A DNA stretch of 56,879 nt, from contig JABMOQ010000083.1 of NCBI GenBank assembly GCA_013204045.1, positions 1-56,879 of the forward strand, in the 5' to 3' direction. How positions within the stretch are numbered: position 1 is the stretch's first letter; every line of letters starts with the position of its first letter. Of the stretch, positions 9,428 through 29,960 are shown one piece after another. A program made the translations under genes and the position numbers. The notes under the pieces were generated by a model. That model searched no databases. It worked only from the letters and a program-made list of their open reading frames with translations, and was not told the origin of the DNA. This stretch comes from Rhodospirillaceae bacterium (GTDB lineage Bacteria > Pseudomonadota > Alphaproteobacteria > Rhodospirillales > JABHCV01).

Positions 9428-9428
9428 T

Positions 9429-10998: not shown

Positions 10999-11937
10999 AT
11001 GAAAATTCTTGTTACAGGGGGCTGCGGTTATAAAGGCCATATTTTGGTCCCAAAACTTCTTGCGCGTGGCCATGAAGTTGACGTGTTCGACAGCATGTGG
11101 TTTGGAAATTTCCTGGAACCACACCCCAATCTGACGGTCACCGAAGGCACCGTGTTGGAGCCCGATGCGATCAACTTGGATGGCGTCGATACGATCATTC
11201 ACCTGTCGTCAGTGGCGAACGATCCATGCGGTGATCTCAACCCTACCTTGACTTGGGAAATCAGTGCTCTCGCCACCATGCAACTCGCCGACAAAGCGGC
11301 GCGCAACGGCGTGAAGCAGTTTCAGTATGCATCGTCAGGTAGTGTTTACGGCATCAAGGAGGATGAGCAGGTTACCGAAGACCTGGAGCTCAAGCCGATT
11401 TCGGGATACAACAAAACCAAGATGGTGTCCGAGCGGGTGCTGCTCTCCTACAAGGAAGATATGAAGGTGCAGATCATTCGCCCCGCCACGGTATGTGGCC
11501 TGTCCCCACGTATGCGCCTCGATGTGTCTGTCAATCTTCTGACCATGCAGGCATTAGAAAAGGGGGAAATCACAGTCTTCGGTGGCGAGCAAACACGCCC
11601 CAACATCCACATTGATGACATCACAGACGTGTATCTGCACTTTCTGGACAAGCCGGATGCCACGGGCATCTACAACGCCGGATTCGAAAATATTTCGATC
11701 CTTGATATTGCCAAGACCATCGCTGAATTTGTGCCAGCAAAGATCACGGTTACCGAATCCAACGATCCTCGGTCATACCGGGTGAATTCAGACAAGTTGT
11801 TGAAGACCGGGTTCAAACCAAAGAAAACGGTCAAGGATGCAATAGTTGAAATTGTAGAGGCATACAGCGCGGGCACACTCAAGAATGAGCCCCACTTTTA
11901 TAATCTTAAGTGGATGCAGGAAAAGATACTGAAATGA
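10999..11937 (+). CDS. NAD-dependent epimerase/dehydratase, extended SDR (sugar-nucleotide enzyme)
   Basis: A 312-residue extended short-chain dehydrogenase. The Rossmann motif ILVTGGCGYKGHILVPKL is at the N-terminus, the catalytic serine region is QYASSGSVYG, and the active Tyr-Lys pair is in ISGYNKTKM (Y and K three residues apart). Such enzymes epimerise, dehydrate or reduce nucleotide-activated sugars. It is the first gene of a plus-strand operon (10999-16797) and its stop overlaps the next SDR start by ATGA. An AGGAAG lies about 11 nt upstream of ATG. The glycine motif has CGYKG where many homologs have AGFIG. The product sugar cannot be read from sequence. Confidence 0.9.
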   Translation: MKILVTGGCGYKGHILVPKLLARGHEVDVFDSMWFGNFLEPHPNLTVTEGTVLEPDAINLDGVDTIIHLSSVANDPCGDLNPTLTWEISALATMQLADKAARNGVKQFQYASSGSVYGIKEDEQVTEDLELKPISGYNKTKMVSERVLLSYKEDMKVQIIRPATVCGLSPRMRLDVSVNLLTMQALEKGEITVFGGEQTRPNIHIDDITDVYLHFLDKPDATGIYNAGFENISILDIAKTIAEFVPAKITVTESNDPRSYRVNSDKLLKTGFKPKKTVKDAIVEIVEAYSAGTLKNEPHFYNLKWMQEKILK

Positions 11938-12932
11938 GCCCGATGAAAATCGTCGTTATGGGCTCAAACTCTTTTTCCGGGGCAAGCTTCGCCGACTTCG
12001 CGCTAAATCAGGGTGCACACGTTCTGGGGCTAAGCCGTTCCGAGGAGCCGCATAGGGCATTCCTTCCTTATCGGTGGTCAGGCAACGACGCAAACTTCCA
12101 CTTTTTTGCTTTCGACATTAACAAACACCTCGACCAGATCATGGATTTGATGGCGGCGGAAAAGCCCGATTATTTTGTTAACTTTGCGGCCCAGAGCATG
12201 GTCGGCGAAAGCTGGGAACACCCGGAAGATTGGTTTCGGACGAATGCGGTTTCCACCGTGATGTTGCACAACCGGCTGCGCCAGGAAAGTAACTATCTGA
12301 AACGCTACGTTCATGTCACCACGCCCGAGGTTTACGGCAGCACGGATGGCAGGATCAAGGAAGATACGCCCTTTAATCCCAGCACACCCTATGCGGTTTC
12401 TCGCGCGGCGAGTGATATGAGCCTTAAGACCTTTGTCGATGCTTATGGCTTTCCCGCCGTATCAACGCGCGCGGCAAATGTTTACGGCCCCGGTCAGCAG
12501 TTGTACCGCATTATCTCGCGGACCATCGTGTTCATTCGCCTGGAAAAGAAACTGCAATTGCATGGCAGCGGCCATTCGGAGCGCTCGTTTATACACATTA
12601 ATGATGTTTCAGATGCCACCTGGAAAGTAATGGTAGATGGCAAAGTGGGTGATACCTACCACATCTCAACCGATAAAATTGTTTCCATTCGCCAACTGGT
12701 CGAACTCATTTGCAATAAAATGGGCGTTGCCTTTGATGATGTAGCAGAAGTAGTAGGCGAGCGATTGGGCAAGGATGCCGCCTATATGCTCGACAGCACG
12801 AAGATCCGGGAGACGCTGGGTTGGTCGGACAGAATATCGCTTGATCAGGGGATTGATGATTGCCTTACTTGGGTAGAAGAAAATCTGGATGCCCTCAAGG
12901 CTCAGGAAATGGATTACATTCATAAACCATGA
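11934..12932 (+). CDS. NAD-dependent sugar-nucleotide 4,6-dehydratase/epimerase family protein
   Basis: A second extended SDR, 332 residues. It resembles the dTDP-glucose/GDP-mannose 4,6-dehydratase group: PDYFVNFAAQSMVGESW early, the active-site run VTTPEVYGSTDGRI, then STPYAVSRAASDM with the Tyr, and AANVYGPGQQLYRIISRT and GSGHSERSFIHINDV, which are hallmark phrases of RmlB-like enzymes. The Tyr is followed by a residue pattern YAVSR, where an arginine sits in the place usually held by the catalytic lysine; worth noting. A 4-keto-6-deoxy nucleotide sugar would be the natural product and is the substrate class used by the ThDP and C-methyl enzymes of this cluster (inference). Starts with ATG 11934 overlapping the upstream stop; ATG 11943 is possible. 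Confidence 0.88.
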   Translation: MSPMKIVVMGSNSFSGASFADFALNQGAHVLGLSRSEEPHRAFLPYRWSGNDANFHFFAFDINKHLDQIMDLMAAEKPDYFVNFAAQSMVGESWEHPEDWFRTNAVSTVMLHNRLRQESNYLKRYVHVTTPEVYGSTDGRIKEDTPFNPSTPYAVSRAASDMSLKTFVDAYGFPAVSTRAANVYGPGQQLYRIISRTIVFIRLEKKLQLHGSGHSERSFIHINDVSDATWKVMVDGKVGDTYHISTDKIVSIRQLVELICNKMGVAFDDVAEVVGERLGKDAAYMLDSTKIRETLGWSDRISLDQGIDDCLTWVEENLDALKAQEMDYIHKP

Positions 12933-12944
12933 CTGTGAAAATTT

Positions 12945-13922
12945 ATGAGTAATTTAAGCAAGGATACCAAACTGACCCTTTATCGGGGAATGCTTTACAT
13001 CCGCACCGTAGAGGAACGCATTGCAGAGTTGTATCCAGAGCAGGAAATACGCTGCCCCGTGCATCTTTGCATTGGACAGGAAGCCGCCGAGGTTGGCTCA
13101 GGCATGGCCTTGGAGCGGAGCGATTACGCGTTTTCCGGCCATCGTTCCCACGGTCACTATCTTGCCAAGGGCGGCGATCTTAAATCCATGATGGCCGAAA
13201 TTTATGGCAAATCTACGGGATGTGCCGGTGGCAAGGGTGGGTCCATGCATTTGATTGATCTGGATGCAGGATTTATGGGTGCGGTGCCGATTGTTGGCAG
13301 TACCATTCCTATTGGAGTCGGCACCGCCTTTGGCTCGCGGCTCAAGGGGGAAGATCGGGTCACCATGATTTACTTTGGTGACGGAGCGACCGAGACGGGT
13401 GTTTTTCACGAAAGCCTCAACTTTGCGGCGCTTCATAAATTATCGGTGGTATTTTTGTGCGAGAACAACCTTTACTCGGTTTATTCGCCAATGAATGTGC
13501 GTCAGCCAGCAGGCCGCACCATTGCCGATCTGGCAGCCGCCCATGGCATTGAAAATCATGCAGCCGATGGAAATGATGTTGAAACTGTTTATTCTCTGAG
13601 CAAAGCAGCCGTCGATACGGCGCGCAGGGGCACAGGTCCGGTATTTTTGGAATTTTCAACATACCGTTGGCGTGAGCATTGCGGCCCTGACTTTGACAAC
13701 CATGTCGGTTACCGCTCTGAGGAAGAATTTAAGGAATGGCAGAAAAAAGATCCTTTGACGCGGTATCGAGAGCTGCTGATCGCTGAGGGCACGGCCACGG
13801 AAAATGAACTGGCTGCCCTGGCTGCCGAGCTTCTGGTGGAAGTGAACGCAGCTGTTCAGTTTGCACAATCTTCAGAATTTCCGGCACCTGTTGGTGCCGA
13901 ACAACGTGTATACGCAAGTTGA
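12945..13922 (+). CDS. Thiamine-diphosphate-dependent dehydrogenase E1 component, alpha subunit
   Basis: A 325-residue homolog of the alpha subunit of pyruvate/branched-chain/acetoin dehydrogenase E1. Motifs in order: GHRSHGHYLAKG (65-76), GGKGGSMH (95-102), and the ThDP-magnesium motif GDGATETG at 145 ending with ENN at 173-175, spacing as in active E1 enzymes. It pairs with the beta subunit gene 10 nt downstream. No E2 or E3 is encoded in the window, and its neighbours are sugar-nucleotide enzymes. Known precedents for such lone pairs in sugar pathways are AviB1/AviB2 of avilamycin biosynthesis, proposed to add a two-carbon branch. I infer a similar acyl transfer role here; a plain metabolic dehydrogenase cannot be excluded. 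Confidence 0.9.
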   Translation: MSNLSKDTKLTLYRGMLYIRTVEERIAELYPEQEIRCPVHLCIGQEAAEVGSGMALERSDYAFSGHRSHGHYLAKGGDLKSMMAEIYGKSTGCAGGKGGSMHLIDLDAGFMGAVPIVGSTIPIGVGTAFGSRLKGEDRVTMIYFGDGATETGVFHESLNFAALHKLSVVFLCENNLYSVYSPMNVRQPAGRTIADLAAAHGIENHAADGNDVETVYSLSKAAVDTARRGTGPVFLEFSTYRWREHCGPDFDNHVGYRSEEEFKEWQKKDPLTRYRELLIAEGTATENELAALAAELLVEVNAAVQFAQSSEFPAPVGAEQRVYAS

Positions 13923-13932
13923 AAATGCTGTC

Positions 13933-14991
13933 ATGACCCGGGAACTTAAATTTTCAGAAGCCCTGCTTGAAGCGCAAGACCAATGTATGGCCGCCGACCC
14001 GGCCGTTTACATCATGGGGCTTGGCGTTCCAGACCCCACAGGCATTTTCGGCACCACCTTGGGGTTGCAAGAAAAGTATGGCGTCAACCGCGTGTTTGAC
14101 ATGCCGCTGGCCGAGAATGCCATGACCGGGGTTGCCATTGGCTCGGCCCTTGTCGGCATGCGCCCGGTAATGACCCATCAGCGCGTTGATTTTGCTACAG
14201 TCGCCATGGAGCAAATTATAAATCAAGCCGCCAAGTGGCATTATATGTTTGATGGTCAGGTGAACGTGCCGCTGGTAATTCGCATGATCATTGGCCGCGG
14301 ATGGGGGCAGGGCCCGCAACATTCCCAAAGCCTGCAAGCCATGTTTGCGCACGTACCGGGGCTTAAGGTAGTGATGCCGACAACCGCTTATGATGCCAAG
14401 GGGTTACTGATATCCGCCATAGAAGATAACAACCCGGTGGTGATGCTTGAACATCGTTGGCTCTATGGTATTACCGACAAGGTTCCGGAGGAGTTTTATC
14501 GGGTACCGCTGGGGAAGGCGCACATCATGCGCGAGGGTACGGATGTGACCATCGTCGGGTTGTCTTATATGAGTCTGGAAAGCTTGCGCGCTGCGGAATT
14601 ATTGGCTGAGCGTGGAATTAACGCAGAGGTCCTAGATCTTCGATCATTGCGACCCTTGGATGAAGATGCAATCCTGACTTCAGTACGTAAGACTGGAAAT
14701 CTGGTAATGGCAGATACGGCGCACAAAATGTTTGGAGCTTCGGCCGAGATTCTGGCACTGGCCACGGAAAAGGCTTTTGACGCTCTTAAATCCCCACCAC
14801 GGCGCGTGACCTTGCCCGACCATCCGGCGCCTACCAGCCCGGCACTGGCGGATGATTTTTATCCTCGCGCCGGGCATATTGCTGCCGAAGTTCTGCGCCA
14901 ATTGGGCCGCGATGTGGATGACGCTTTATTTCTTCCTCCCGAAGGTCGGCACCATGATCAACCGGATTCATCGTTCAAGGGGCCGTTTTAA
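13933..14991 (+). CDS. Thiamine-diphosphate-dependent dehydrogenase E1 component, beta subunit
   Basis: A 352-residue transketolase-like beta subunit. The catalytic glutamate lies in MPLAENAMTG (Glu61), followed by the alpha/beta interface and a transketolase C-terminal domain with VTIVGLSYMS and AEVLDLRSLRPLDEDAI. Where classical pyruvate dehydrogenase beta subunits read GEDV, this protein has GLGV (29-32) followed by PDPTGIFGTTLG, marking a separate subfamily. It should form the usual alpha2beta2 tetramer with the preceding gene. Start ATG 13933 sits 10 nt after the alpha stop; an upstream in-frame extension to 13861 would overlap alpha and lacks support. The C-terminal tail (PPEGRHHDQPDSSFKGPF) is polar and specific to this branch. 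Confidence 0.9.
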   Translation: MTRELKFSEALLEAQDQCMAADPAVYIMGLGVPDPTGIFGTTLGLQEKYGVNRVFDMPLAENAMTGVAIGSALVGMRPVMTHQRVDFATVAMEQIINQAAKWHYMFDGQVNVPLVIRMIIGRGWGQGPQHSQSLQAMFAHVPGLKVVMPTTAYDAKGLLISAIEDNNPVVMLEHRWLYGITDKVPEEFYRVPLGKAHIMREGTDVTIVGLSYMSLESLRAAELLAERGINAEVLDLRSLRPLDEDAILTSVRKTGNLVMADTAHKMFGASAEILALATEKAFDALKSPPRRVTLPDHPAPTSPALADDFYPRAGHIAAEVLRQLGRDVDDALFLPPEGRHHDQPDSSFKGPF

Positions 14992-15047
14992 TGCAGCATA
15001 TCAGGCAGCTACATACTTTGAATTTTTGGAAAGCATTGGCTTAATCT

Positions 15048-15716
15048 ATGGGACAAGAAATAAATATTTTCGATAAATATCCGCAATCGAAGCGCCCCAT
15101 TGATGATCGTGCCAGGTTGATCACCGAGGATCATCGGGCTGCCGCTCGCAAGTTCGACGTTGAATATTTTGATGGCGACAGACTCAGCGGTTACGGTGGG
15201 TACAATTATCATCCACGGTTCTGGACCGAAACGGTAAAGCGTTTCCGCGATCATTACAGCCTTGCATCCGATTCCAAAGTGCTGGATGTGGGCTGCGCCA
15301 AGGGTTTTATGATGTATGACTTCAAGCTCTTGATGCCACAGTTGAACATTCAGGGCGTCGATATTTCCCGGTACGCCTATGATCATGCCAAGGATGAGGT
15401 CAAGGACTTGATAACTGTTGCCAATGCCAAGGAGCTTCCCTTCGAAGATGATTCCTTCGATCTGGTTATCTCTATCAACACCATTCACAATCTTCCGCCA
15501 GATGATTGCAAACAGGCTTTCCGTGAAATTGAACGGGTGTCGCGCAAGGATTCCTTTGTCATGAACGATGCATGGCGCAACGAAGCAGAGCATAAATCCA
15601 TGCTGGACTGGAACCTGACGGCTTTGACTTACATGCATGTTGATGATTGGAAAAAGCTGTTCGACGAAGTCGGCTATACCGGCGACTATTACTGGTTTAT
15701 CGCTGAATCGGCTTGA
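15048..15716 (+). CDS. Class I SAM-dependent methyltransferase
   Basis: A 222-residue Rossmann methyltransferase. Motif I is VLDVGCAKGF (about 84-93), the acidic loop is IQGVDISRYAY, and ANAKELPFEDDSFDLVISINTIHNLP covers motifs II-IV as in Methyltransf_11 enzymes. The N-terminal about 60 residues, with ARKFDVEYFDGDRLSGYGGYNYHPRF, look like a substrate lid. The target may be a sugar hydroxyl, carboxyl or an intermediate of this cluster. It is in line with the E1 genes and 10 nt before the alcohol dehydrogenase gene. The start lacks a good ribosome site. Confidence 0.87.
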   Translation: MGQEINIFDKYPQSKRPIDDRARLITEDHRAAARKFDVEYFDGDRLSGYGGYNYHPRFWTETVKRFRDHYSLASDSKVLDVGCAKGFMMYDFKLLMPQLNIQGVDISRYAYDHAKDEVKDLITVANAKELPFEDDSFDLVISINTIHNLPPDDCKQAFREIERVSRKDSFVMNDAWRNEAEHKSMLDWNLTALTYMHVDDWKKLFDEVGYTGDYYWFIAESA

Positions 15717-15726
15717 TAAAATATAC

Positions 15727-16797
15727 ATGACAGATATCCCCACCATTACGCGCGCTGCTGTTCTTGTCGAAATCGGCAAGCCGCTTGAAATAATGGAGTT
15801 GACGCTGCCAACGCTCAAGCCGGGTCAGGTCTTGATAGAGATGGCCTATGCCGGTGTATGTCATTCTCAATTGCATGAAATTCGCGGACGGCGCGGGCCC
15901 GACGCTTTTTTACCGCACACACTAGGGCACGAGGGGGCGGGCACCGTATTGGCTTGTGGCGAGGGCGTCAGCAAAGTCTGTCTCGGCGATCGTGTGGTCC
16001 TGTCCTGGATCAAGGGCGAAGGAGTCGATGTGCCGGGAACCACATACGAAAGCGCCATCGGCACGGTTAACTCTGGCGCAATAAGCACCTTCATGACGGT
16101 CACGGTTACTTGTGAGAACCGTGTGGTGCCAATTTTGGAAGACAAATTGCCCATGCGCGAAGCGGCATTGCTGGGTTGTGCGGTGCCGACCGGGGCGGGC
16201 GTGGTGATCAATACAGCCGATGTGCAGGCAGGCTCCTCTGTCGCGGTATTTGGTGTTGGCGGCATTGGCCTGAGCGCCGTATTGGCTTCCGCCATGCGAG
16301 GCGCGACGACCATCATTGCCATCGATATTGTTGATGAAAAGCTAGAGGCCGCCAGTCGCGCCGGCGCCACGCACACCATTAATGCCGCCACCGAGGATGC
16401 GGTTGAACGGATCAAAGAAATTACCGAAGGCAGCGGCGTTGATACTGCGGTTGAGGCCGCCGGCCTGCCGCAAACCATGGAGGCGGCATTTGTCTCGGTT
16501 GCCTATGGCGGGGGGTTGTGCGTGCTTGCCGGGAATGTGGCGTTCGGAGAAACAATAAACCTGGACCCCTTTGACCTGATCAAGGGCCGCAAGATCGTCG
16601 GCAGTTGGGGTGGGGAAACCGTCCCTGATCGCGATCTGCCACGTTACGCCGAGATGTTTCTTTCTGGAAAATTACCATTTGACCAATTGGTTAGCCATGA
16701 ATGGACACTTGAAAACATCAACACTGCTTTTGATGAACTGGAAGCAAGGCAGGTTTCACGTGCATTGATCAGAATGAAAGATAAAAACGGAATATAG
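15727..16797 (+). CDS. Zinc-dependent alcohol dehydrogenase family protein (MDR superfamily)
   Basis: A 356-residue medium-chain dehydrogenase. The catalytic-zinc ligands are visible as Cys in AGVCHSQLHEIRG and His-Glu in LGHEGAGTV; the third ligand region ALLGCAVPTGAGVV supplies another Cys. The coenzyme fold has VAVFGVGGIGLSAVLAS and IIAIDIVDEKL, suggesting NAD preference. The usual four-cysteine structural zinc lobe is absent: the section after GDRVVLSW lacks the CxxCxxC run. Class III-like enzymes oxidise alcohols or reduce aldehydes and ketones. In this operon it could act on a sugar-derived or side-chain keto group. Last gene of the plus-strand operon, convergent with the radical SAM gene 28 nt away. 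Confidence 0.9.
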   Translation: MTDIPTITRAAVLVEIGKPLEIMELTLPTLKPGQVLIEMAYAGVCHSQLHEIRGRRGPDAFLPHTLGHEGAGTVLACGEGVSKVCLGDRVVLSWIKGEGVDVPGTTYESAIGTVNSGAISTFMTVTVTCENRVVPILEDKLPMREAALLGCAVPTGAGVVINTADVQAGSSVAVFGVGGIGLSAVLASAMRGATTIIAIDIVDEKLEAASRAGATHTINAATEDAVERIKEITEGSGVDTAVEAAGLPQTMEAAFVSVAYGGGLCVLAGNVAFGETINLDPFDLIKGRKIVGSWGGETVPDRDLPRYAEMFLSGKLPFDQLVSHEWTLENINTAFDELEARQVSRALIRMKDKNGI

Positions 16798-16825
16798 CTG
16801 TGATCATGTTTCAGAGTAGGTATTT

Positions 16826-18295
16826 TTAGGACGGGATTGATGGATTGCTGGACAGATTAGCCCCAAAGTTAGAGGAGGTAACCGCATCGCGTGTTTTTTT
16901 GCGAATATCGCGAAGCTCCTCCTCGCTTATCGCCCACATTTCTGCCATATGCATTATTTTTTTAGGCGTATCGAAATTGATTCGATCCCATTCATAAGCA
17001 CGTAAGACCGAGATATCTTCAGCCGTCCAATCATTCGATGTTATCTGACTAAACCGCCAATCTACGCGCGCCCCGTCTGTTTCATTTGAAATTGCACCAA
17101 TGTCAGTGGCCATATCCCACAACCGCGTGCCTTTTAAAGGAACGGCAACAAAAAACTTCACATAATCTGCACCGCAATGTTCTGCAAAGTGAATGGTTTC
17201 ACGAATTTCCGCCCACGTTTCACCTGGAAACCCGATGATGAAGTTTGAAATCACGAACAAGCCAGCCTCACGAACTTTTTTGATTAGCGGTGCCACGGTA
17301 TCCAGTTTGATGGGCTTGAGCACAATGTCGTTCATGACACGTTGATTGCCGCTTTCTATGGCGACGTTGATGCCCACACAGCCGGCGCGGACCATTAGGT
17401 CCAGCATTTCGTCGTCCAGCGCAAAAATAGCGAAAGCGCCAATAATGAACTTAAGGCCCAGATCGCGTTCAATGCTCTCTCGCAGCACTTCCTTGAAGAA
17501 TTTCTTTTTTATGACAATGTTATCGTCGTCAATAAGAAACGACCTGAGGCCATAGCGGTCGCGCAGATATATCAGTTCATCAATAACTTTTTTGGCCGAC
17601 GGCGCACGTACTTTCTTGCCGCTGATTTCTTCCACCTGACAGAATGAACAGCCAACGGGGCATCCGCGTGTAATAACCATTCGTACGTATGGCATTTCAG
17701 GGGCGCGCAGCGGGCCGGTGCGTGGACCAACTGCAATATAATCTTCCATGCGAACCAGGTCGTAATTTGGCATGGGAAGAGCGTCTAGATCCTTGATAAC
17801 GGCTTTTTCCTGAACAACAAGATTTTTGCCGTCACGATAAACTAGGCCGACCGTCGGCATTTCCCCATTCCCTTTGAGATAGCGTAGCAAGTCGCGCAGC
17901 ACATATTCACCATTGCCGACGATGGCGTAGTCGATGCCGGAATCTGTCATGACATCTTCATATTCAATGGTTACATGCACACCGCCCGCAATTATAACTG
18001 GGTCCGGCAAACGTTCGCGCAACGCTGCGACTGTGGTATGAAGGGTATCCTTATACTCAGTGGAAAGAATCGAAATGCCGATATATGAGGGATTCGCTTG
18101 TACGACTTTTTCGACAAATTCCGTGATGCTCATATCGTAAAACTGAGCATCTATAATTTTGACGTTGACGTCGTCCTGAACCATCGCGCCTAAAAGGCAC
18201 AGCAAGGACGGGTTCAAATTCCAATTCGTTTGGAAATCGATTTTTGCCCATCTCTGATTTGGATAGACAAGGACAAGATTTTTTTTAGTGCTCAT
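16826..18295 (-). CDS. B12-binding domain radical SAM protein
   Basis: A 489-residue protein with an N-terminal cobalamin-binding Rossmann domain (about 1-150; AGGVHVTIEYEDV at 103-115) and a radical SAM domain with the cluster motif C212-x3-C216-x2-C219 (CPVGCSFC). The classical DxHxxG cobalamin histidine is not evident (IIDAQFYDM occupies that area), as is common in radical SAM members. Family members methylate unactivated carbons or phosphinates, or rearrange and reduce substrates. The C-terminal region after residue 400 has DWRFSQITSNDWTAED, not assigned. GAGG seven bases before ATG supports the start. It is the last gene of a four-gene minus operon with the dioxygenase, C-methyltransferase and ThDP enzyme, so it probably modifies the same product. 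Confidence 0.9.
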   Translation of the reverse strand: MSTKKNLVLVYPNQRWAKIDFQTNWNLNPSLLCLLGAMVQDDVNVKIIDAQFYDMSITEFVEKVVQANPSYIGISILSTEYKDTLHTTVAALRERLPDPVIIAGGVHVTIEYEDVMTDSGIDYAIVGNGEYVLRDLLRYLKGNGEMPTVGLVYRDGKNLVVQEKAVIKDLDALPMPNYDLVRMEDYIAVGPRTGPLRAPEMPYVRMVITRGCPVGCSFCQVEEISGKKVRAPSAKKVIDELIYLRDRYGLRSFLIDDDNIVIKKKFFKEVLRESIERDLGLKFIIGAFAIFALDDEMLDLMVRAGCVGINVAIESGNQRVMNDIVLKPIKLDTVAPLIKKVREAGLFVISNFIIGFPGETWAEIRETIHFAEHCGADYVKFFVAVPLKGTRLWDMATDIGAISNETDGARVDWRFSQITSNDWTAEDISVLRAYEWDRINFDTPKKIMHMAEMWAISEEELRDIRKKTRDAVTSSNFGANLSSNPSIPS

Positions 18296-18344
18296 CTGGT
18301 TGCCTCGTACTCTTTGATTATTACAATATGAATTGAGAATTCAA

Positions 18345-20078
18345 TCAAGAGACAAGGGGAGCATTGTTAGGTGTGGTGCCCTGAACTTCTTCATCAATAT
18401 CTACACTGATGATAGCAACACGATATTTTCCCTTTGGGTCGAAAAGCCATGCGGCGGCATCATCAGCGCCATTATGATCCGATAGATATGTTTCATACCC
18501 AAATGCTTCAAAAATTTGGCGAAGATGGTAAGGCGGCAGACTCGGTGATTTTCCTATGTCCGATCCGAAATGGCGGCGTTCCAAAAACTCATTCTGGGTC
18601 TGGCGAATGATACCGTACCCCTGATTATCGATGACCAGAAACTTTACCGGAACTTCAAGGTTTCGTGCGACGGCCAGCTCTTGAATATTCATCATTAGGC
18701 CGCCGTCACCTGAAATGGAAAGAGCGCCATGGCAACCAGGGCTACATGCCGCACCGACAGCGGCAGGAAGTGAATACCCCATTGAGTGAAGGTTGAACGA
18801 TGTGATCACCGGTGGCGAATTGCATATTGAAGCGGCCTGATAGGTCCAGCTCAGGGTCGCCCCGGCATCACCAAAGACGGTGTAATTCGGCGGGCATGCT
18901 TCCAGAAAACGGATGATTGATTTTACCGGTTCTTGGGCGCTAATTGCAGTCTGCAATGGTTGGCTAGCACTCGTCTTCCATTTGTCCCGCGATACGTCCG
19001 GGCGAACATCTGTCCAGTATGCATATTCCTGTTTTCCTGTCTTAAGGTGGGCATTCAGACCATCAAGGAACTCCATGCTGTCTTCTCTGAGTACCGTTAT
19101 GCGTTTACCATAATCGTGAAGAAAGCGCTCGTCTTCATGGGCTCCGTTATTTATGGCAATCATTTGTGCTTCAGGTGCAAAAATATCTTTTGCCTTCCCA
19201 GCCTGATGCTGTAGCAAACTGGCGCCAACGGCAATGAGTAGATCACACGATTGCAGCAAGGCATTTCCGTTACCGGGACAGTGAGTGCCGAACAGGCCTA
19301 TATGAAAAGGGTTTTCCGGGCGGTACACACGTTGCCCCGCCCAGGTGAAAATGGCAGGAACACCAAGTTTTCTTAAAATAGGATCAAGGGTAGCTTGCAC
19401 CTTGTCCGTTTGAATATCGACGCCACCACCGATCAACATGAGCGGCCGCTTGGCATTTTCCAGAGCAGAAAGAACAGTAGAGACGGATTGGCCGATTGTC
19501 GGCGCCGGGCTGTTCGCATTTGTTTTTGGGGCACTCTCAACCATATCAACGTTCAACATTTGACGTTGGAAATCATCTTGTATTTCAAGAACCAACGGGC
19601 CGTGTATTTCATTTTTGGCTATTTTATCTATTGCCGAAAGCGCTTGTAGTAGTTCGCCTTCATTTCTGACTTTCAAGGATTTATCGGAAATAAAGTCGGC
19701 AATTTCAGCGTGGGGTGCTTCTTGAAATCCATACATCTTGGTGCCCAGTCGCTGGGCAATGTTGATCCCCGAGCCAACTTGTCCGCAGAGGAAAACCGAA
19801 GGAACATTGTCGTAGTAACAGGCTGCGATGCCAGTCACGAGATTAAAAAAACCGGGACCTGTCGTGACGATCGCGCCAGCGACATCTCCCGATGCGAAAT
19901 AATAACCATGAGCAGAGAGCCCTGCCGCCTGTTCGTTGAGAACAGGGATGTATTGGGTTTCGCTATTTTGGCATGTGGACTCTATAAGGTGCATACAAGC
20001 CCCGCCCTGCACGCCAAAAAAAGTTTTCACACCTGCACGCGCCAGGCGCTGAGAAATAATGTCTGAAACCTTGTTCAT
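18345..20078 (-). CDS. Thiamine-diphosphate-dependent enzyme of the acetolactate synthase fold
   Basis: A 577-residue, three-domain ThDP enzyme. The catalytic Glu49 is in VLNEQAAG; the central domain begins near 195; the cofactor motif is GDGG at 457 with Asn485 in DNQGYG, 28 residues on, as in acetolactate synthases, benzaldehyde lyases and sulfoacetaldehyde acetyltransferases. It lacks an adjacent small regulatory subunit and sits with an NDP-sugar-type C-methyltransferase 26 nt upstream, so a biosynthetic IlvB role is unlikely. The closest conceptual precedent is YerE of yersiniose A formation, which adds an acetyl unit from pyruvate to a CDP-4-keto sugar. Role here is inferred; alternatives are a decarboxylase or carboligase for another building block. 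Confidence 0.88.
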   Translation of the reverse strand: MNKVSDIISQRLARAGVKTFFGVQGGACMHLIESTCQNSETQYIPVLNEQAAGLSAHGYYFASGDVAGAIVTTGPGFFNLVTGIAACYYDNVPSVFLCGQVGSGINIAQRLGTKMYGFQEAPHAEIADFISDKSLKVRNEGELLQALSAIDKIAKNEIHGPLVLEIQDDFQRQMLNVDMVESAPKTNANSPAPTIGQSVSTVLSALENAKRPLMLIGGGVDIQTDKVQATLDPILRKLGVPAIFTWAGQRVYRPENPFHIGLFGTHCPGNGNALLQSCDLLIAVGASLLQHQAGKAKDIFAPEAQMIAINNGAHEDERFLHDYGKRITVLREDSMEFLDGLNAHLKTGKQEYAYWTDVRPDVSRDKWKTSASQPLQTAISAQEPVKSIIRFLEACPPNYTVFGDAGATLSWTYQAASICNSPPVITSFNLHSMGYSLPAAVGAACSPGCHGALSISGDGGLMMNIQELAVARNLEVPVKFLVIDNQGYGIIRQTQNEFLERRHFGSDIGKSPSLPPYHLRQIFEAFGYETYLSDHNGADDAAAWLFDPKGKYRVAIISVDIDEEVQGTTPNNAPLVS

Positions 20079-20104
20079 TGGATGCCTGTTTTTGTCGTTG
20101 GTTA

Positions 20105-21310
20105 TTACAATGATGTAAACGGTACAATAATATGATCGAATTCCATTTCGCCCATACGACTAACCAGAACACGGGCATAATCCGGCCCTGTCAAAATTCC
20201 CACAGCTCCCTTGTAGGAATCTTTCGGCTTGGTAATTTTGACCGGGTAGTGGGGAAATGTTTTGTTTTGGCGAAGGGGGTGATCATCCAATATTTCGGTG
20301 AACGGCAGGGAGTCTTCATAAAAATAGGCAAACACAGGAAAGTTTTGGGCTGCGCCGAAGCCGTATATGGGCTTGTGTTCTACTGTTCTCACTCGCTCTT
20401 TCAGCATATCAATCTGTTGGCGGAAGACACGGAAGGATTGCTTTATTTGATCGACGCTCAGCGCCATATCAACTGCTCCGGTGGGTTTGTTTCCACCTTT
20501 TTTGAAGGCAATTAGAATCTGGCCCCAGTTGGCGAAGTTAACAAAGATATCGATAACTTCGCCGCCTGCGCGCTGTACCATGCGCGTTAATGAAGGAATT
20601 GTGAACTGTTGATAATGTTGGTGTGAAAGTTGATCAAAACGGTTGTTAAGCAAAAGGAATTCCGCGCCCGGTACGCCGATGATGATCGTTGCGTCGTCTT
20701 TGGCGGATTCAATAATGTTTTTTGTAACTTCATACGGGTTTCTCAGATGTTCAAATACGAAATTAGTGACATACAGGTCCGGGCTTCGTGAAAACGTCTC
20801 GGAAAAATTCGCGTTTTCAATAAAGTCACCAAGAACATTAAACTTTTCTACAAGTTCAGGTTCTAGCCCTTCAACAAATTGTGCCTCTCGCCCCTTTAAA
20901 ATGGGATCAACGCCGACCACATCGGCGCCAGTCTCAGCAAATTTCTGCAGCAGGAAGGTGTCGTTACATCCTATTTCCGCAACAAGGCTGACTTTTTTGC
21001 CGGCACATACTTTCTGTGCAAAATCGAAAAGGACATTATTAGCCTGCATCGCCGAAACGCTATGTGACGTTTTATGCTGGAAGTCAACGGGATACAAAAA
21101 AGAGGCATCTACGGTGTATCCAAGTTGCACATGGCCACACTGCGCACATGCACAGACCGAATTATCGACCAGTGGGTAGTTCTCCGTCTTGCTGTAGTCA
21201 TCAAGGAAAATCCCGATATGCGGAAACTTCGGTAACTCTGAAATAAGTTCAAGATTATCTGATCCACAGGCGCAACAGGTTTCGAGTGGCTCTTTGCTGA
21301 CGTCTATCAT
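20105..21310 (-). CDS. C-methyltransferase of the NDP-hexose C3-methyltransferase type
   Basis: A 401-residue protein with the three-part layout of TylC3-like enzymes: an N-terminal zinc-binding domain with cysteines at 12, 13, 15 and C53, C55, C58 (CACAQCGHVQLG), a SAM-binding Rossmann domain (SLVAEIGCNDTFLL, 108-121) and a C-terminal domain with IYGFGAAQNFPVFAY. In this family the zinc domain binds the substrate and methylation occurs on carbon next to a keto group of a nucleotide sugar. It therefore points to a C-methyl branched sugar. It lies between the dioxygenase (60 nt) and the ThDP gene (26 nt) in the same operon. Family members in other clusters also act on non-sugar substrates. Confidence 0.87.
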   Translation of the reverse strand: MIDVSKEPLETCCACGSDNLELISELPKFPHIGIFLDDYSKTENYPLVDNSVCACAQCGHVQLGYTVDASFLYPVDFQHKTSHSVSAMQANNVLFDFAQKVCAGKKVSLVAEIGCNDTFLLQKFAETGADVVGVDPILKGREAQFVEGLEPELVEKFNVLGDFIENANFSETFSRSPDLYVTNFVFEHLRNPYEVTKNIIESAKDDATIIIGVPGAEFLLLNNRFDQLSHQHYQQFTIPSLTRMVQRAGGEVIDIFVNFANWGQILIAFKKGGNKPTGAVDMALSVDQIKQSFRVFRQQIDMLKERVRTVEHKPIYGFGAAQNFPVFAYFYEDSLPFTEILDDHPLRQNKTFPHYPVKITKPKDSYKGAVGILTGPDYARVLVSRMGEMEFDHIIVPFTSL

Positions 21311-21370
21311 TGTGTTCTAATTCCTATTTTTATCATGTTTGCGTTTTATGTGGGATCCTGGGAAGAACGT

Positions 21371-22234
21371 CTAACGAATAGCATTTGAATTCTTTAGTTT
21401 TATCTCCCGATACTCCTGGTCTGAACTTCTTGATTCGGTATCAAAACCAAGAACGAACTTTCCACGTGGTATCTCATCAACAATGCTTTCCAAATTCTTG
21501 TCTCTGATCATTTGAGGTACGTTAACTTGCTGTTTGAACAAGGGGGTCGTGTAGATGGTAACCAATGCGCGCCTTATTTCATTGCTATGATTTTCTGTGC
21601 CGCAATGAAACAGGGCGGAGTTGAACAGAAGCAGGGCGCCGGGAGGAATATCGGGGATAATTGCATTACGATGCACGTACTCGTCAGAAGGGAAAATATC
21701 CTGTGTATGACTGCCGTATAAAATTGCGATTCCGCCGTTTTTGCTGTTTGAACCATCAATGGAATGTACGAACGTCAAGCTAACTGGAGTCGAAGTCGTA
21801 AAATTCATATATGCCGGTTCCCGATGCCAGGCCGTTGCGGGGTGTAGTTCCCCAGGCGAACTGATCACGGCACGATTGACGTTAAGAATATACTGCTCGC
21901 CGAATATCTCTTTTAATATTTCAGGAACCAGCCCCCCGAAGCATATGTTGCGTATGGCCGGTGAAGACAGGAATGGGCTACGGACAACACCATTATCGTT
22001 AATCGCCATCAAATTTTCTTCACCAAATACCTGCTTCTCCGCCTCCAACAAGGTATCGACATCATCCCTGCATTGTTTGGTAACGCTTTCATCCAATTGC
22101 CCGGGAATGACGCAAAACCCCTTGATCATCAGTTCCTCATGGATATAGGCAACAGAAGGAAACTTGTGATCGCCTGAGCGTCGTTGCAGTCCTGAAAAAA
22201 CATTCAGGGGAGCGTTTGTGCTGCTGTTCTGCAT
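21371..22234 (-). CDS. Phytanoyl-CoA dioxygenase (PhyH) family protein
   Basis: A 287-residue double-stranded beta-helix oxygenase. Iron ligands read as His137 and Glu139 in AWHREPAY and His210 in LFHCGTENHS, with Arg221 suited to bind 2-oxoglutarate. Most PhyH enzymes use His-x-Asp; here the acid appears to be Glu. The N-terminal FPSVAYIHEELMIKGFCVIPG is the normal PhyH opening. Such enzymes hydroxylate, halogenate or desaturate small molecules, including sugars and ectoine. GGAGGG five bases before ATG gives a firm start. It is the first gene of the minus operon running to 16826 and faces the SDR gene across a short promoter region. Confidence 0.87.
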   Translation of the reverse strand: MQNSSTNAPLNVFSGLQRRSGDHKFPSVAYIHEELMIKGFCVIPGQLDESVTKQCRDDVDTLLEAEKQVFGEENLMAINDNGVVRSPFLSSPAIRNICFGGLVPEILKEIFGEQYILNVNRAVISSPGELHPATAWHREPAYMNFTTSTPVSLTFVHSIDGSNSKNGGIAILYGSHTQDIFPSDEYVHRNAIIPDIPPGALLLFNSALFHCGTENHSNEIRRALVTIYTTPLFKQQVNVPQMIRDKNLESIVDEIPRGKFVLGFDTESRSSDQEYREIKLKNSNAIR

Positions 22235-22277
22235 TTAGCCCTCCATTTCACCAAGCTTGGCATCAGTTTAACACAAA

Positions 22278-22301
22278 TACGGGCTTATTATTAAGCCCGT
22301 A
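22278..22301. promoter_or_regulatory. Perfect palindrome in divergent promoter region
   Basis: TACGGGCTTA (22278-22287) and TAAGCCCGTA (22292-22301) form a perfect 10-bp inverted repeat around TTAT. It lies 43 nt upstream of the PhyH start and 93 nt upstream of the SDR start. It lacks a U tract on the plus strand, so an operator is more likely than a terminator; a second small symmetry CCCGA-AAA-TCGGG sits at 22350-22362. Confidence 0.5.
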
Positions 22302-22394
22302 AAGTTGGCATTTCGTTAATAATATAGTGATACTTGCAGCTGCCCCTTGCCCGAAAATCGGGTAAACTCATAGCTCTATTCTGAAAGGTGGATT

Positions 22395-23174
22395 ATGGAT
22401 CTAAAAATTGCCGGACGTCATGCTCTGATCACAGGTGGTGGGCGTGGAATCGGACGCGCGATCGCCTTAAGTCTGGCGCGCGAGGGGGTCAACACTACAA
22501 TTGTGGCGCGCACACAATCGGACCTTGATAGCCTGATGGACGAAATTTCTGCTCATGGCGGAAACCATCAAGGGATTGCCATGGATCTGGTTCCAGATGG
22601 TGCACCACAAACATTATTGAGTCGTATCGAGAAATCGGGATTTAGCGACATGGATATAGTTGTTCACAATATGGGGGGAACCCTTGGAATAACAGATCCC
22701 TATTGTTCAATTGAGAATTGGCGGCGCATCTATCGATTCAATTTCGAAATTGCAGTAGAATTAAATACCTTAATTGTTCCTGGAATGCAGAAACGTGGTT
22801 GGGGGCGGGTCGTTCACAATTCGTCAATCGCATCCATGGAAAATCAGGGCCCCGTGACTTACAGCGCCATCAAAGCGGCCTTAACGGCCTATACCCGCAG
22901 TTTCGGCGGCGTTGTGGCACCAGATGGTGTGGTCGTATCTGCTGTTCTTCCCGGCGCTATATATACGGATGGCGGATATTGGGAAACAGCTTCAGTGGAG
23001 CGAGCTGATCACGTGGAAAAATTTCTGGCAGAGCGGCAGAGAATAGGCCGGTTTGGGCTTCCGGAAGAAATCGCTAATTTTGTTGCCTTTTTGTGTTCAG
23101 ATCTCGCAACTTTCAATACTGGCAGCATCATTCCAATCGACGGCGGTCAGGGGCGAGGATATTTCGGGCAGTAA
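22395..23174 (+). CDS. Classical SDR family NAD(P)-dependent oxidoreductase
   Basis: A 259-residue classical short-chain dehydrogenase. The cofactor motif is TGGGRGIG (14-21), the structural motif is HNMGG (in place of NAG/NNAG), the catalytic serine is in HNSSIAS and the active pair is YSAIK. The end IPIDGGQGRGYFG matches FabG-like enzymes. It reduces or oxidises a keto or hydroxy group with NAD(P). AAAGGTGG eight bases before ATG gives a good start. It stands alone on the plus strand between two minus operons and likely shares the 160-nt divergent promoter region with the PhyH operon. Confidence 0.9.
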   Translation: MDLKIAGRHALITGGGRGIGRAIALSLAREGVNTTIVARTQSDLDSLMDEISAHGGNHQGIAMDLVPDGAPQTLLSRIEKSGFSDMDIVVHNMGGTLGITDPYCSIENWRRIYRFNFEIAVELNTLIVPGMQKRGWGRVVHNSSIASMENQGPVTYSAIKAALTAYTRSFGGVVAPDGVVVSAVLPGAIYTDGGYWETASVERADHVEKFLAERQRIGRFGLPEEIANFVAFLCSDLATFNTGSIIPIDGGQGRGYFGQ

Positions 23175-23203
23175 TTGAAACACTATTCCAATTTTCTAAA
23201 ACT

Positions 23204-24433
23204 TTATTTGGGACTTAAAAGATTCTGGTAGCGCTCAGCATAGGCGGAACTAAGGCGACTCAGGCAATATGGATTGCATAAATCCGCCTGATTCTTTGGT
23301 GTTGCCATTTGCCTGTATTGAATCTGTCTTTCGTTCAGCAATGTTAAGTTTTCTTCCAGTCCCAGTGCTTCTATGGTTGCGGCTAGGATATCTGTGCCGT
23401 CAGGCGAAACTGATTCATGTGTTTCCAACGGAAAGTATACTCCGTTTTCAAAATAAAGTTCGTTCTGTTCGGCAAATGTTAGCATCAAGTTATTTTCTCG
23501 CAAACGCGCCAGTGCCGGCAGGGCAACGGCAAGAGGTGAAAATGGCGGAATACCGTGCCACCAGGTATTGGCGACCACATATGGTTTCATCATAAGTTCC
23601 GGGAACATGGCAATTCCAGACGGGCCCGTCAGGCAGAAATCCGAATTGCTGAATAGGGCAAAATCGTTTTTGAATGATGCTAGGGGGCTGTTCGCATAAT
23701 CAATGACGCCTAATCTGGCGAAGTCTTTTGGATGGTATTCCCTGCCAACCTGGACCAGTTGGAAATTCATGTCCTTCAGGTATTCAAGTGTCGGCACATA
23801 AGTCAATGGGTCAACGGCTTCGGCACCGCCAGAATGCTGTTCGGTATCCTTGATTTGAATAAGCGCTAGCCGCCGACCGCGCGCATCGACAAGGCGTTCA
23901 AGTTCGTCGGGCAAAATAAATTTGCGCAGCATGCCGCCGGGCATGGGGAATAGAAATCGAGTCTGCTCTGTGGTGAATGTCTCCAGCTTGCGGCGATAAT
24001 AAGAAACAAAATCTCCCATCAGCTTGTTAATGGAGGATCTATAGATGATATGGTCAACTTGTTCTGATCTAAGGGTTTCGTTTTCAATGGGCGCAATCTT
24101 GAAAGAAGACATGCCGACATCTACGGTCAGATCGGGGCGAAACAGTGCGATGGAGCGTGCCATCTCTGAAGCATATTTAGAAAGGAAAAAAACGATATTC
24201 AGAGAATCGCCATACAATTCCGAAATGGTAGACATGCGCTCTTCATCCGGGCCAATGTAGCAGCAAATTCCGTCTGCAGGAACTTCGCCCAAAACCCTCA
24301 TGCACATGAAGTTATCAAGTTCCGAAAGGGTGTGTCCGACGGCACTTGTTTCAATATTGATGATCAACTTCCCATTGTTTGCTTCCAGAAATTTAACAAT
24401 ATCAAGCGCGGACTCTATATTAATGGGGATCAT
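23204..24433 (-). CDS. Putative glycosyltransferase, TIGR04372-like
   Basis: A 409-residue protein with no signal or membrane segment. The C-terminal half contains a GT-B-like acceptor of nucleotide sugar: LALIQIKDTEQHSGG, then YLKDMNFQLVQVGRE, DYANSPLASFKNDFALFSNSD and LTGPSGIAMFPELMMKPYVVANTWW, which match the pattern of TIGR04372 putative glycosyltransferases from surface-glycan loci (recognised from memory, not searched). The N-terminal half (1-170) is less familiar. It lies 28 nt downstream of the nucleotidyltransferase-kinase gene in the same direction, so it may transfer the sugar that enzyme activates. Function not proven; a non-catalytic relative is possible. Confidence 0.65.
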   Translation of the reverse strand: MIPINIESALDIVKFLEANNGKLIINIETSAVGHTLSELDNFMCMRVLGEVPADGICCYIGPDEERMSTISELYGDSLNIVFFLSKYASEMARSIALFRPDLTVDVGMSSFKIAPIENETLRSEQVDHIIYRSSINKLMGDFVSYYRRKLETFTTEQTRFLFPMPGGMLRKFILPDELERLVDARGRRLALIQIKDTEQHSGGAEAVDPLTYVPTLEYLKDMNFQLVQVGREYHPKDFARLGVIDYANSPLASFKNDFALFSNSDFCLTGPSGIAMFPELMMKPYVVANTWWHGIPPFSPLAVALPALARLRENNLMLTFAEQNELYFENGVYFPLETHESVSPDGTDILAATIEALGLEENLTLLNERQIQYRQMATPKNQADLCNPYCLSRLSSAYAERYQNLLSPK

Positions 24434-24461
24434 GCAGCGACTCCAGATTCATTGGGTTTCT

Positions 24462-26024
24462 CTATTTAAGCAAGGCCGTGATGTGTTTGAAAAAACCAGC
24501 TTTTGACAGAGACCGGCGATTGCCCAGTTCGGCGACCATTTCCGCCCCGGCGGCGTTACCGACGAGGGCGACAATATCCCACGGTGTGTCGACGGCGACC
24601 AGTGCTCCGGTAATTGCCAACACCGCATCGCCGGCGCCGACGCGGTCGACGACCTTGGGTGCCAGGGCCGGAGCCTCGATAAATTCGCCATCCTTTTTGT
24701 AGTGAATGGTTCCGAACCGCCCCAAGGTGACGGTAAAGCGTGAGCAGTCGATACACTCAGCCAGAGCCACAAGTTTTTCCTGGACTCCGTTATGGCGCAT
24801 ACGGGTTTCAAAATCCATTTCATTGCCGGCCAGACAAACGTAATCAGCTTTGGTATATTTTGAAATTGTATTTAATCCCCGGTTTCCTGCATTGGCTTGT
24901 GTGTTGACGACCAGGAATTTTGCCTTTTCCGTCACCAGATCGATCAGTGCCTGTGACATCATTCCGTGTCCGTAATCCGCAATGATGACGACATCGGCTT
25001 TTTGCAAACTTTTTTCAATGGTTTTCAGGGCGGCGGCTTCGGTTTCCGGATCAAGCGGGCCGTCATCCATGTAATAAAGCTCAAGCATTTTAGTGCCCGT
25101 ATATTCATCAACGATACGGCGCTTGCGGATGGTCGGCGCATTCTTATGGATAACTGGATGCCATGTGACGTTGGGATGCAGGGAACGCCGGATCATGTCT
25201 TCGTGACTATTGATTTCACCTTGCAAGGCCACCAATTCGATGTTGGCACAAAAATCACCCAGATGATTGGCGACGGCCAGGCTGCCACCGACGACCGCTT
25301 CCATTGATTCGTGCAGGAAAGCTAATACGGGGTCTTTTGAAGATCTGCCGAGCCCCGAACAGAAGACATATTCGTCGATGATCGCTTCACCCAGAACCAG
25401 AACATTTAGCGATGATATGGCGTTGAAAGCTTCAAGCACATCGCCATCAGAACGGCGTTGACGAAATCCCTTCAGCCAGTCTTCCGTTTCCTGGGGGAAC
25501 GGCAGGAAATTCTTGTTTATTAGTGACGATGAACTGAAAGTAATGTCGTTGGTAAAATGAATGCGTCCGCCAATGGCGGTAACGGCCTCGGATTCTTCGA
25601 CGATTTTACCGGTGATGTCATCGTCCGGATCGACATAGTCACTGCCCTTGACGAAGACATCCGGACGCAGCAGCTTGATAGCTTCCAGGGCGCTGCTGGT
25701 GTCATTAATGGCGACGTAATCGACACTTTCCAGTGCGGCCAGGGTTTCAGCTCTAAGGGCTTGTGTAAACGCCGGCCGTCCGGGGCCCTTGTTGACATGC
25801 TTGTCTGCGGTAATCGTCACTACCAGAATATCACCCTGACGCTTGCCCTCGGCCAGATGACGGATATGGCCGGGGTGCAGCAAGTCGAAAACGCCGTGGC
25901 ATTGCACAATGCTCTGGCCTCGGCCCCTGAGTTCCTCCAGGGTCGTGGCCAATTCCTTAATATTCTTTATTTTTTCGGTGGCAGCCGGATTCTGTCCGGA
26001 AGCCGCGCCGCTTTTATCAGCCAT
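24462..26024 (-). CDS. Bifunctional nucleotidyltransferase-PfkB kinase, HldE-like with reversed domain order
   Basis: A 520-residue fusion. Residues about 20-165 form a cytidylyltransferase-like domain with the HxGH site as H50-P-G-H53 in GVFDLLHPGHIRHL. Residues about 205-520 form a PfkB/ribokinase domain ending in VDRVGAGDAVLAITGAL with catalytic Asp466. In HldE of LPS heptose synthesis the kinase comes first and the nucleotidyltransferase last; here the order is reversed. The protein should phosphorylate a sugar at C1 or C7 and activate it as an NDP-sugar. Heptose is one candidate; the linked glycosyltransferase genes agree with glycan building. No gmhA, gmhB or hldD is in the window. Confidence 0.88.
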   Translation of the reverse strand: MADKSGAASGQNPAATEKIKNIKELATTLEELRGRGQSIVQCHGVFDLLHPGHIRHLAEGKRQGDILVVTITADKHVNKGPGRPAFTQALRAETLAALESVDYVAINDTSSALEAIKLLRPDVFVKGSDYVDPDDDITGKIVEESEAVTAIGGRIHFTNDITFSSSSLINKNFLPFPQETEDWLKGFRQRRSDGDVLEAFNAISSLNVLVLGEAIIDEYVFCSGLGRSSKDPVLAFLHESMEAVVGGSLAVANHLGDFCANIELVALQGEINSHEDMIRRSLHPNVTWHPVIHKNAPTIRKRRIVDEYTGTKMLELYYMDDGPLDPETEAAALKTIEKSLQKADVVIIADYGHGMMSQALIDLVTEKAKFLVVNTQANAGNRGLNTISKYTKADYVCLAGNEMDFETRMRHNGVQEKLVALAECIDCSRFTVTLGRFGTIHYKKDGEFIEAPALAPKVVDRVGAGDAVLAITGALVAVDTPWDIVALVGNAAGAEMVAELGNRRSLSKAGFFKHITALLK

Positions 26025-29796: not shown

Positions 29797-29960
29797 TACG
29801 GGCTTTTCCGGGCACTTCAGCAAGTGGTAAGATAGCCAACATATTATTGATTACTTGACCTTCCGGGCGTCAAATGAAGTTGACCCCTGTGGGCGGTGGT
29901 GATACCCGAAGGCCACAGCGCCTGATAGATGGGCAGAAAGATAATTTCCGGAGAAAACAA

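Follow-up and report, generated by a model that had tools for sequence, protein, structure and literature searches.

In the making of the Yersinia O-antigen, an acyl unit is transferred to CDP-3,6-dideoxy-4-keto-glucose by the carboligase YerE, and a like reaction has been proposed or shown for E1-type enzyme pairs in antibiotic sugars, as described in the available portions of PMC12247030, PMC4753412 and PMC10338323. The sugars assigned to YerE-like enzymes are those of lipopolysaccharides and O-antigens, and there are cases from mycobacteria as well; for E1-type carboligases, the setting is that of secondary metabolites (PMC12247030, PMC4753412; same portions). Here, we analyzed a stretch of 56,879 nucleotides (the window) that comprises positions 1 to 56,879 of contig JABMOQ010000083.1 from a Rhodospirillaceae bacterium (assembly GCA_013204045.1). 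Our subject is a set of four minus-strand genes in it (16826-22234), encoding a PhyH-family oxygenase, a sugar C-methyltransferase, a thiamine diphosphate (ThDP)-dependent enzyme resembling acetolactate synthase (ALS) and a B12-binding-domain radical S-adenosylmethionine (SAM) enzyme. We consider it fairly probable that these genes belong to a locus for a cell-surface glycan, where they act as a tailoring cassette on a single nucleotide-activated keto-sugar.

The locus resembles two described kinds of system, each in part. Like the YerE-like carboligases of yersiniose and erwiniose, it encodes an ALS-type ThDP enzyme in the neighbourhood of a sugar 4,6-dehydratase; unlike them, it carries an E1 pair and a C-methyltransferase alongside. 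A DegT-type aminotransferase-like gene, as expected for CDP-3,6-dideoxysugars, was not found among the 20 window proteins scanned with Pfam, and neither was an E2 component. With the AviB1/AviB2-type enzymes (alpha-KADH2; avilamycin, paulomycin, aldgamycin), the locus shares an E1-alpha/beta pair by nucleotide-sugar genes. These enzymes are described for secondary metabolites (PMC12247030, available portion), whereas the window pair shares a glycan-type locus with an ALS-type enzyme. Literature titles and abstracts gave no report of the four-gene set or of a single glycan locus that holds both ThDP classes. The enzyme types and kinds of chemistry are already known; what is new is probably the gene combination, and most notable within it are two ThDP enzyme classes that recur together in sugar loci.

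All four open reading frames point in the same direction, with the PhyH gene first (21371-22234, 287 amino acids (aa)), followed by the genes for the C-methyltransferase (20105-21310, 401 aa), the ThDP enzyme (18345-20078, 577 aa) and the radical SAM enzyme (16826-18295, 489 aa), at intervals of 60 nt (21311-21370), 26 nt (20079-20104) and 49 nt (18296-18344). These frames, their strand, coordinates and spacing agree exactly with an initial annotation of the same DNA, as do the enzyme types, and each protein has a Pfam match above the curated cut-off. Every gene starts with ATG; a strong Shine-Dalgarno-like GGAGGG stands upstream of PhyH, and only weaker purine-rich stretches precede the other three. 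Between 16600 and 22600, promoter-like matches (10 versus 9.3 expected) and terminator-like matches (8 versus 7.0 expected) are at chance level, so that spacing and direction alone argue for one transcript; on this basis, co-transcription as a single unit is plausible. A divergent region of 160 bp (22235-22394) separates PhyH from a plus-strand gene for a short-chain dehydrogenase/reductase (SDR) and holds a perfect 10-bp inverted repeat (22278-22301), 43 nt before the PhyH start and without a second occurrence in the window when up to 3 mismatches are allowed, which is a possible operator or leader hairpin.

The set is embedded in a glycan-type locus (10999-26024) with sugar genes on both flanks. 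On one side, the plus strand encodes an NAD-dependent sugar epimerase/dehydratase (epim1, 10999-11937; PF01370), a nucleoside diphosphate (NDP)-sugar 4,6-dehydratase-like protein (gmd, 11910-12932; PF16363; PDB match to dTDP-glucose 4,6-dehydratase, E 5.6e-42) whose true start may be a later ATG, and subunits resembling pyruvate dehydrogenase E1-alpha (alpha-KADH2 type, 12945-13922; PF00676, 250 bits) and E1-beta (13861-14991; PF02779 and PF02780; start probably the ATG at 13933). They are followed by a class I SAM methyltransferase, MT2, which serves as the marker of the module (15048-15716; PF08241), and a zinc alcohol dehydrogenase (15637-16797; PF00107 and PF08240) that probably starts at the ATG at 15727.

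To see these genes in other genomes, we used a scan with six short peptide patterns of one ThDP protein, which distant relatives can escape, over one genome per species (84,980 species), and a survey of 289 genomes of the class, with the own genome included each time. The scan yielded 37 loci with best-segment identities of 25-31%. The four loci whose ThDP proteins stand nearest in the 53-row tree described below (L013, L014, L043 and L100) all contain the epimerase, dehydratase, MT2, E1-alpha, E1-beta and ThDP genes along with two further genes, SDRb and FkbM, while a kinase fusion, the alcohol dehydrogenase (46-49% identical in L014, L043 and L100) and a SIS (GmhA-like) gene are each present in three of the four. 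Identity to the window in L013 and L043 reaches 76% for the epimerase, 67-68% for the dehydratase, 61-62% for E1-alpha, 68-70% for E1-beta and 53-54% for MT2, against 29-30% for the ThDP enzyme; the epimerase is 68% identical in L100 and 40% in L014, and the L014 dehydratase 49%. Counting L133, whose source genome falls in the same family as the window (radical SAM, E1 pair, ThDP, MT2, SDR and a second radical SAM gene), five loci besides the window combine both ThDP classes with sugar genes. The recurrence of an ALS-type ThDP enzyme with an E1 pair, MT2, epimerase and dehydratase is directly established, as are the gene order, families and catalytic motifs in the window. The closest partial parallel to the cassette itself is L038, a Paracoccaceae contig that unites SDR, ThDP, MT2, radical SAM and PhyH genes and is without the C-methyltransferase; no second instance of the four-gene combination was met in the genomes searched.

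At E<=1e-30, MT2 is found in 37 of the 289 class genomes. We compiled 46 MT2 loci, a partly biased set in which 40 represent all MT2 places outside the own genome and six (L013, L014, L043, L038, L041, L133) were reached through ThDP. E1 genes occur in 13 of them, ALS-type ThDP genes in 9, radical SAM genes in 11, C-methyltransferase-like genes in 6 and PhyH in 1, next to kinase fusions (27), epimerases (27) and dehydratases (22). MT2 (motif FFDGDR..GYGG, read by eye) with the kinase fusion, SIS, epimerase and dehydratase genes forms a recurrent module of the class (L080-L119). Plasmid searches with the ThDP protein, MT2 and the C-methyltransferase returned distant homologues only: the best place stayed below 60% identity in all 1270 records for the first, 0 of 45 records covered 80% of the query for the second, and identities were 22.9-25.0% in the best 15 of 132 records for the third. 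A Brachyspira plasmid has been described with a radical SAM gene and a glycosyltransferase (PMC4267127, available portion).

The ThDP enzyme itself is probably a carboligase. It has the full three-domain form of ALS and decarboxylases (TPP_enzyme N, M and C at 92.2, 70.5 and 86.1 bits), with the catalytic Glu49 (NEQ) intact and a GDGGLMMN motif followed by DN about 25 residues further on, and keeps 52 of the 77 positions that are invariant in 10 aligned sugar-type rows. Its best PDB match is 8rph (180 bits), which reads CDG where the window protein reads GDG. A CDG motif is reported for the YerE-like enzyme JanthE (PMC12247030, available portion), so 8rph is probably JanthE or a near relative. 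In a tree of 53 rows that took in all 37 scan loci, with no YerE sequence among the rows, the enzyme groups with sugar-locus enzymes (99/98), the nearest being those of L013, L014, L043 and L100, and lies with L013, L014, L038, L041, L042 and L043 on one side of a 100/99 branch. MT2 is present in five of these six loci versus none of the 31 others (Fisher test, 1.4e-5, ignoring relatedness and unequal flanks), and the E1 pair in three versus none; the loci are 5.0 to 21.6 kb long, so absences in short ones are weak, and L013 is cut off by the end of its contig. In local matches, L013 (2e-73), L043 (1e-71) and L014 (2e-68) lie ahead of the other 31 loci (2e-56 at best).

The C-methyltransferase, of the TylC3/TcaB9 type, combines a zinc-binding domain (Methyltransf_13, PF08421, 33.9 bits) with a SAM domain (Methyltransf_23, PF13489, 46.8 bits). 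TylC3 and TcaB9 are its closest counterparts (PDB 4rv9, E 1.7e-15), and all 10 PDB sequences that it matched are sugar C-methyltransferases by name. Its His232 aligns with a His of both, which has a catalytic role in enzymes of this type. The relationship is remote, as the E-value indicates, and where TylC3 has a Glu ahead of this His, the window protein has Gln. A Pfam match to the C-terminal Methyltransf_14 domain (PF08484) is absent at 1e-3; the TcaB9 alignment extends to residue 359. At E<=1e-20, the own genome is the only one of the 289 with a match to it.

PhyH, a Fe/2-oxoglutarate oxygenase (PF05721, 43.6 bits, cut-off 22), contains the residues H137-R138-E139, H210 and R221, and its structure model is unreliable (mean pLDDT 34, three-row alignment). 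At 1e-25, it occurs in 2 of the 289 class genomes, own included; both relatives found (L038, L128) lie in glycan-type loci, for L128 as judged by eye.

In the radical SAM enzyme (PF02310, 58.2 bits; PF04055, 86.4 bits; CPVGCSFC), the cysteines C212, C216 and C219 of the CxxxCxxC motif are kept in 13 of 13 aligned rows. The nearest described enzyme by sequence and by fold is the radical SAM diol dehydratase AprD4 (6fd2, the closest solved structure at 69.9 bits), an enzyme that is not known to bind cobalamin. Fold neighbours of the structure model (mean pLDDT 74.7) are AprD4 (Z 30.6, rmsd 3.2, 396 aligned), MgmA (29.9, 3.6, 369) and OxsB (29.3, 3.0, 389); MgmA is thus tied with AprD4 and OxsB close to it, and the scores lie too near one another for the fold to single out a reaction. 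At 1e-40, the enzyme is found in 5 of the 289 class genomes, own included, and two of the four other matches (L130, L132) stand near clear E1 genes. Of the NCBIfam models, one for a P-methyltransferase fits it best (166.9 bits, far below the 575 cut-off), which would suit a phosphonate pathway made up of a radical SAM P-methyltransferase, PhyH and a ThDP-type phosphonopyruvate decarboxylase. The ThDP protein has the full three-domain form, however, and no phosphoenolpyruvate mutase was found over the cut-off in an assembly rated as 98.73% complete (best 48.6 versus 319.55 bits), for which reason we rejected this pathway; we regard it as hardly credible.

Beyond the divergent region, the locus continues with the SDR oxidoreductase (22395-23174, plus strand; PF13561), whose homologues stand near ThDP genes in L133, L099, L038 and L113, and which is a candidate branch-ketone reductase or radical SAM partner. 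On the minus strand follow a TIGR04372-family glycosyltransferase (23204-24433; NCBIfam 54 bits, cut-off 45; without a Pfam match), with a 28% homologue in L013, and a fused nucleotidyltransferase-PfkB kinase (24462-26024; PF01467 and PF00294), 45% identical over 503 aa in L014. This HldE-like fusion scores 164 bits with NCBIfam HldE, below the cut-off of 521. Its domain order, nucleotidyltransferase first and PfkB kinase second, is the reverse of that in the HldE model. As the genome has a second E1-alpha on contig C154 (341 bits) and a separate GmhA with a normal-looking HldE (C136, L145; BLAST and by eye), the E1-alpha and the fusion of the locus are extra copies.

GC content at third codon positions (GC3) was measured for 30 genes of the window: the four genes have 0.47-0.51, the SDR 0.45, the glycosyltransferase 0.50, the fusion 0.58, the six sugar genes of the plus strand 0.51-0.62 and the 17 genes outside 10999-26024 0.58-0.73. 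These differences suggest at least two acquisitions, and the best reading is that the cassette, with its low GC3, was acquired separately. The lower GC3 relative to the plus-strand sugar genes, together with the absence of the C-methyltransferase and PhyH from L013, L014, L043 and L100, would also fit four genes that merely sit in a glycan island and whose product is a small metabolite that is secreted and has nothing to do with the surface glycan. Against this speak the sugar C-methyltransferases that fill the PDB matches, the recurrence of the ThDP, SDR and radical SAM genes in sugar loci, and the lack of any NRPS or PKS module among the 20 Pfam-scanned proteins, though an AMP-ligase is encoded at 29874-31277; we judge a secreted metabolite unlikely.

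Several observations weigh against a glycan-tailoring cassette with a sugar carboligase. The C-methyltransferase and PhyH are found in 0/4 of L013, L014, L043 and L100, and a radical SAM gene, of another subfamily, in 1/4. Among the 40 loci chosen by MT2, nine have E1 and three an ALS-type gene (L099, L100, L113), with both only in L100; the L113 protein falls on the side of acetohydroxyacid synthase (AHAS) in the 53-row tree. The best radical SAM match (L129) has no homologue of the window's sugar genes around it, and L131 has only weak E1 matches (28-31%). PhyH has HxE instead of HxD (HRE...H, with HRD...H in both aligned relatives); Glu is tolerated in the iron triad of some Fe/2-oxoglutarate enzymes. 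Two features kept by the 10 sugar-type rows, a C-terminal tail and a His ahead of the catalytic Glu, are missing from the ThDP enzyme. Its identity to the nearest relatives is about 30%, its branch in the 53-row tree measures 3.34 changes per column, and it matches the AHAS structure 6lpi on a level with 8rph (179 versus 180 bits). In a second tree of 21 rows, from which L100 and other rows were left out, the approximately unbiased (AU) test rejects neither a grouping with L013, L014 and L043 (p-AU 0.364) nor an AHAS-type one (p-AU 0.295). We therefore base the carboligase assignment on the neighbourhood and the best local matches, not on the tree.

The very long branch, lost tail and altered positions could also mean that the ThDP enzyme is degenerating in a partly decayed cassette; yet each of the four genes has an uninterrupted frame that spans full-length domains, and none of Glu49, GDGG, CxxxCxxC and the methyltransferase His has been lost, which makes decay distinctly improbable. 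A displaced AHAS for branched-chain amino acids, in an operon that is a chance neighbourhood, would account for the matches to AHAS models (PRK08978, 257.7 bits, cut-off 738), and the assembly has neither an AHAS large subunit over the cut-off nor a small subunit (ilvN). With TIGR00118, however, the protein reaches 238.5 bits against a cut-off of 538.35, below three paralogues (335, 312.5 and 286.7 bits), and ilvC breaks off exactly where contig C175 ends (7908-8237), so the missing ilvBN are read as a probable assembly gap; a displaced AHAS thus seems very improbable.

Seen against these results, the initial annotation of the four genes needs some adjustment. It had argued for a shared substrate, for which the recurrence of ThDP and radical SAM relatives in one kind of sugar locus is indirect support; as a unit, the four genes are not conserved, given the few class-genome matches of the C-methyltransferase, PhyH and radical SAM enzyme. 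The neighbourhood search with the ThDP query that it proposed showed the E1 pair, epimerase, dehydratase and MT2 to accompany the nearest ThDP homologues throughout (4 of 4 loci); in the window, these partners are encoded on the opposite strand, outside 16826-22234. SDRb has no match in the window at 1e-6, and the best FkbM match of the genome is a 30% partial one on another contig. From these sequence comparisons, we infer that the four-gene cassette, bringing an SDR of its own, took the place of the usual ThDP-FkbM-SDRb set; alternatively, an inherited ThDP gene diverged fast.

In the tailoring pathway that we favour, the fusion at 24462-26024 would supply an NDP-sugar, possibly heptose-derived, in which the 4,6-dehydratase (11910-12932) would create a 4-ketone. 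The C-methyltransferase could then place a methyl group on C3 via the enolate, and the ThDP enzyme would decarboxylate a 2-oxo acid, probably pyruvate, and add the acyl unit to the ketone in a YerE-like manner, giving a tertiary alcohol. Reduction of the branch by the SDR or the alcohol dehydrogenase, hydroxylation by PhyH, and deoxygenation (AprD4-like) or methylation of an unactivated carbon by the radical SAM enzyme might complete the sugar, with the E1-alpha/beta pair probably acting as a second carboligase of the AviB1/AviB2 type. What we infer here is that the glycan is on the cell surface, which substrate and donor are used, in which order the steps follow, and that one sugar is the target of all four enzymes. 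Orthosomycin clusters are a precedent for PhyH-type and radical SAM steps, albeit one that the literature listing did not confirm. The mix of chemistries, which had been called unusual for a single product, is less odd than claimed, as sugars have been described to undergo C-methylation beside a carbonyl as well as ThDP carboligation at a ketone (PMC12247030, available portion).

A wider proposal, which we hold to be tentative and rather doubtful, is a family of bacterial glycan loci that employ two ThDP carboligases, an E1-alpha/beta pair and an ALS-type enzyme, in one pathway to a doubly extended or doubly branched higher-carbon sugar. In the lineage of the window, ThDP-FkbM-SDRb would have been replaced by the diverged ThDP enzyme, C-methyltransferase, PhyH and B12 radical SAM enzyme, leading to an undescribed sugar with adjacent quaternary centres. 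If confirmed, the pairing of both ThDP classes in sugar loci would define a set of genes with which branched or higher-carbon sugars that are new could be sought. It would also offer a candidate carboligase, highly diverged in sequence, for the making of tertiary alcohols, and a radical SAM enzyme that likely acts on a sugar.

Two further observations concern the surroundings of these genes. Directly upstream of the glycan genes (6718-10844) lie an FAD-dependent (DAO, BFD-type) oxidoreductase, a second FAD oxidoreductase and an FGGY kinase, resembling a glycerol-3-phosphate set. In L041 (9251-11803), from a Pacearchaeota metagenome-assembled genome, a long N-terminal extension shares one frame with the ThDP enzyme and by eye resembles a sugar-phosphate cupin; several radical SAM genes lie around.

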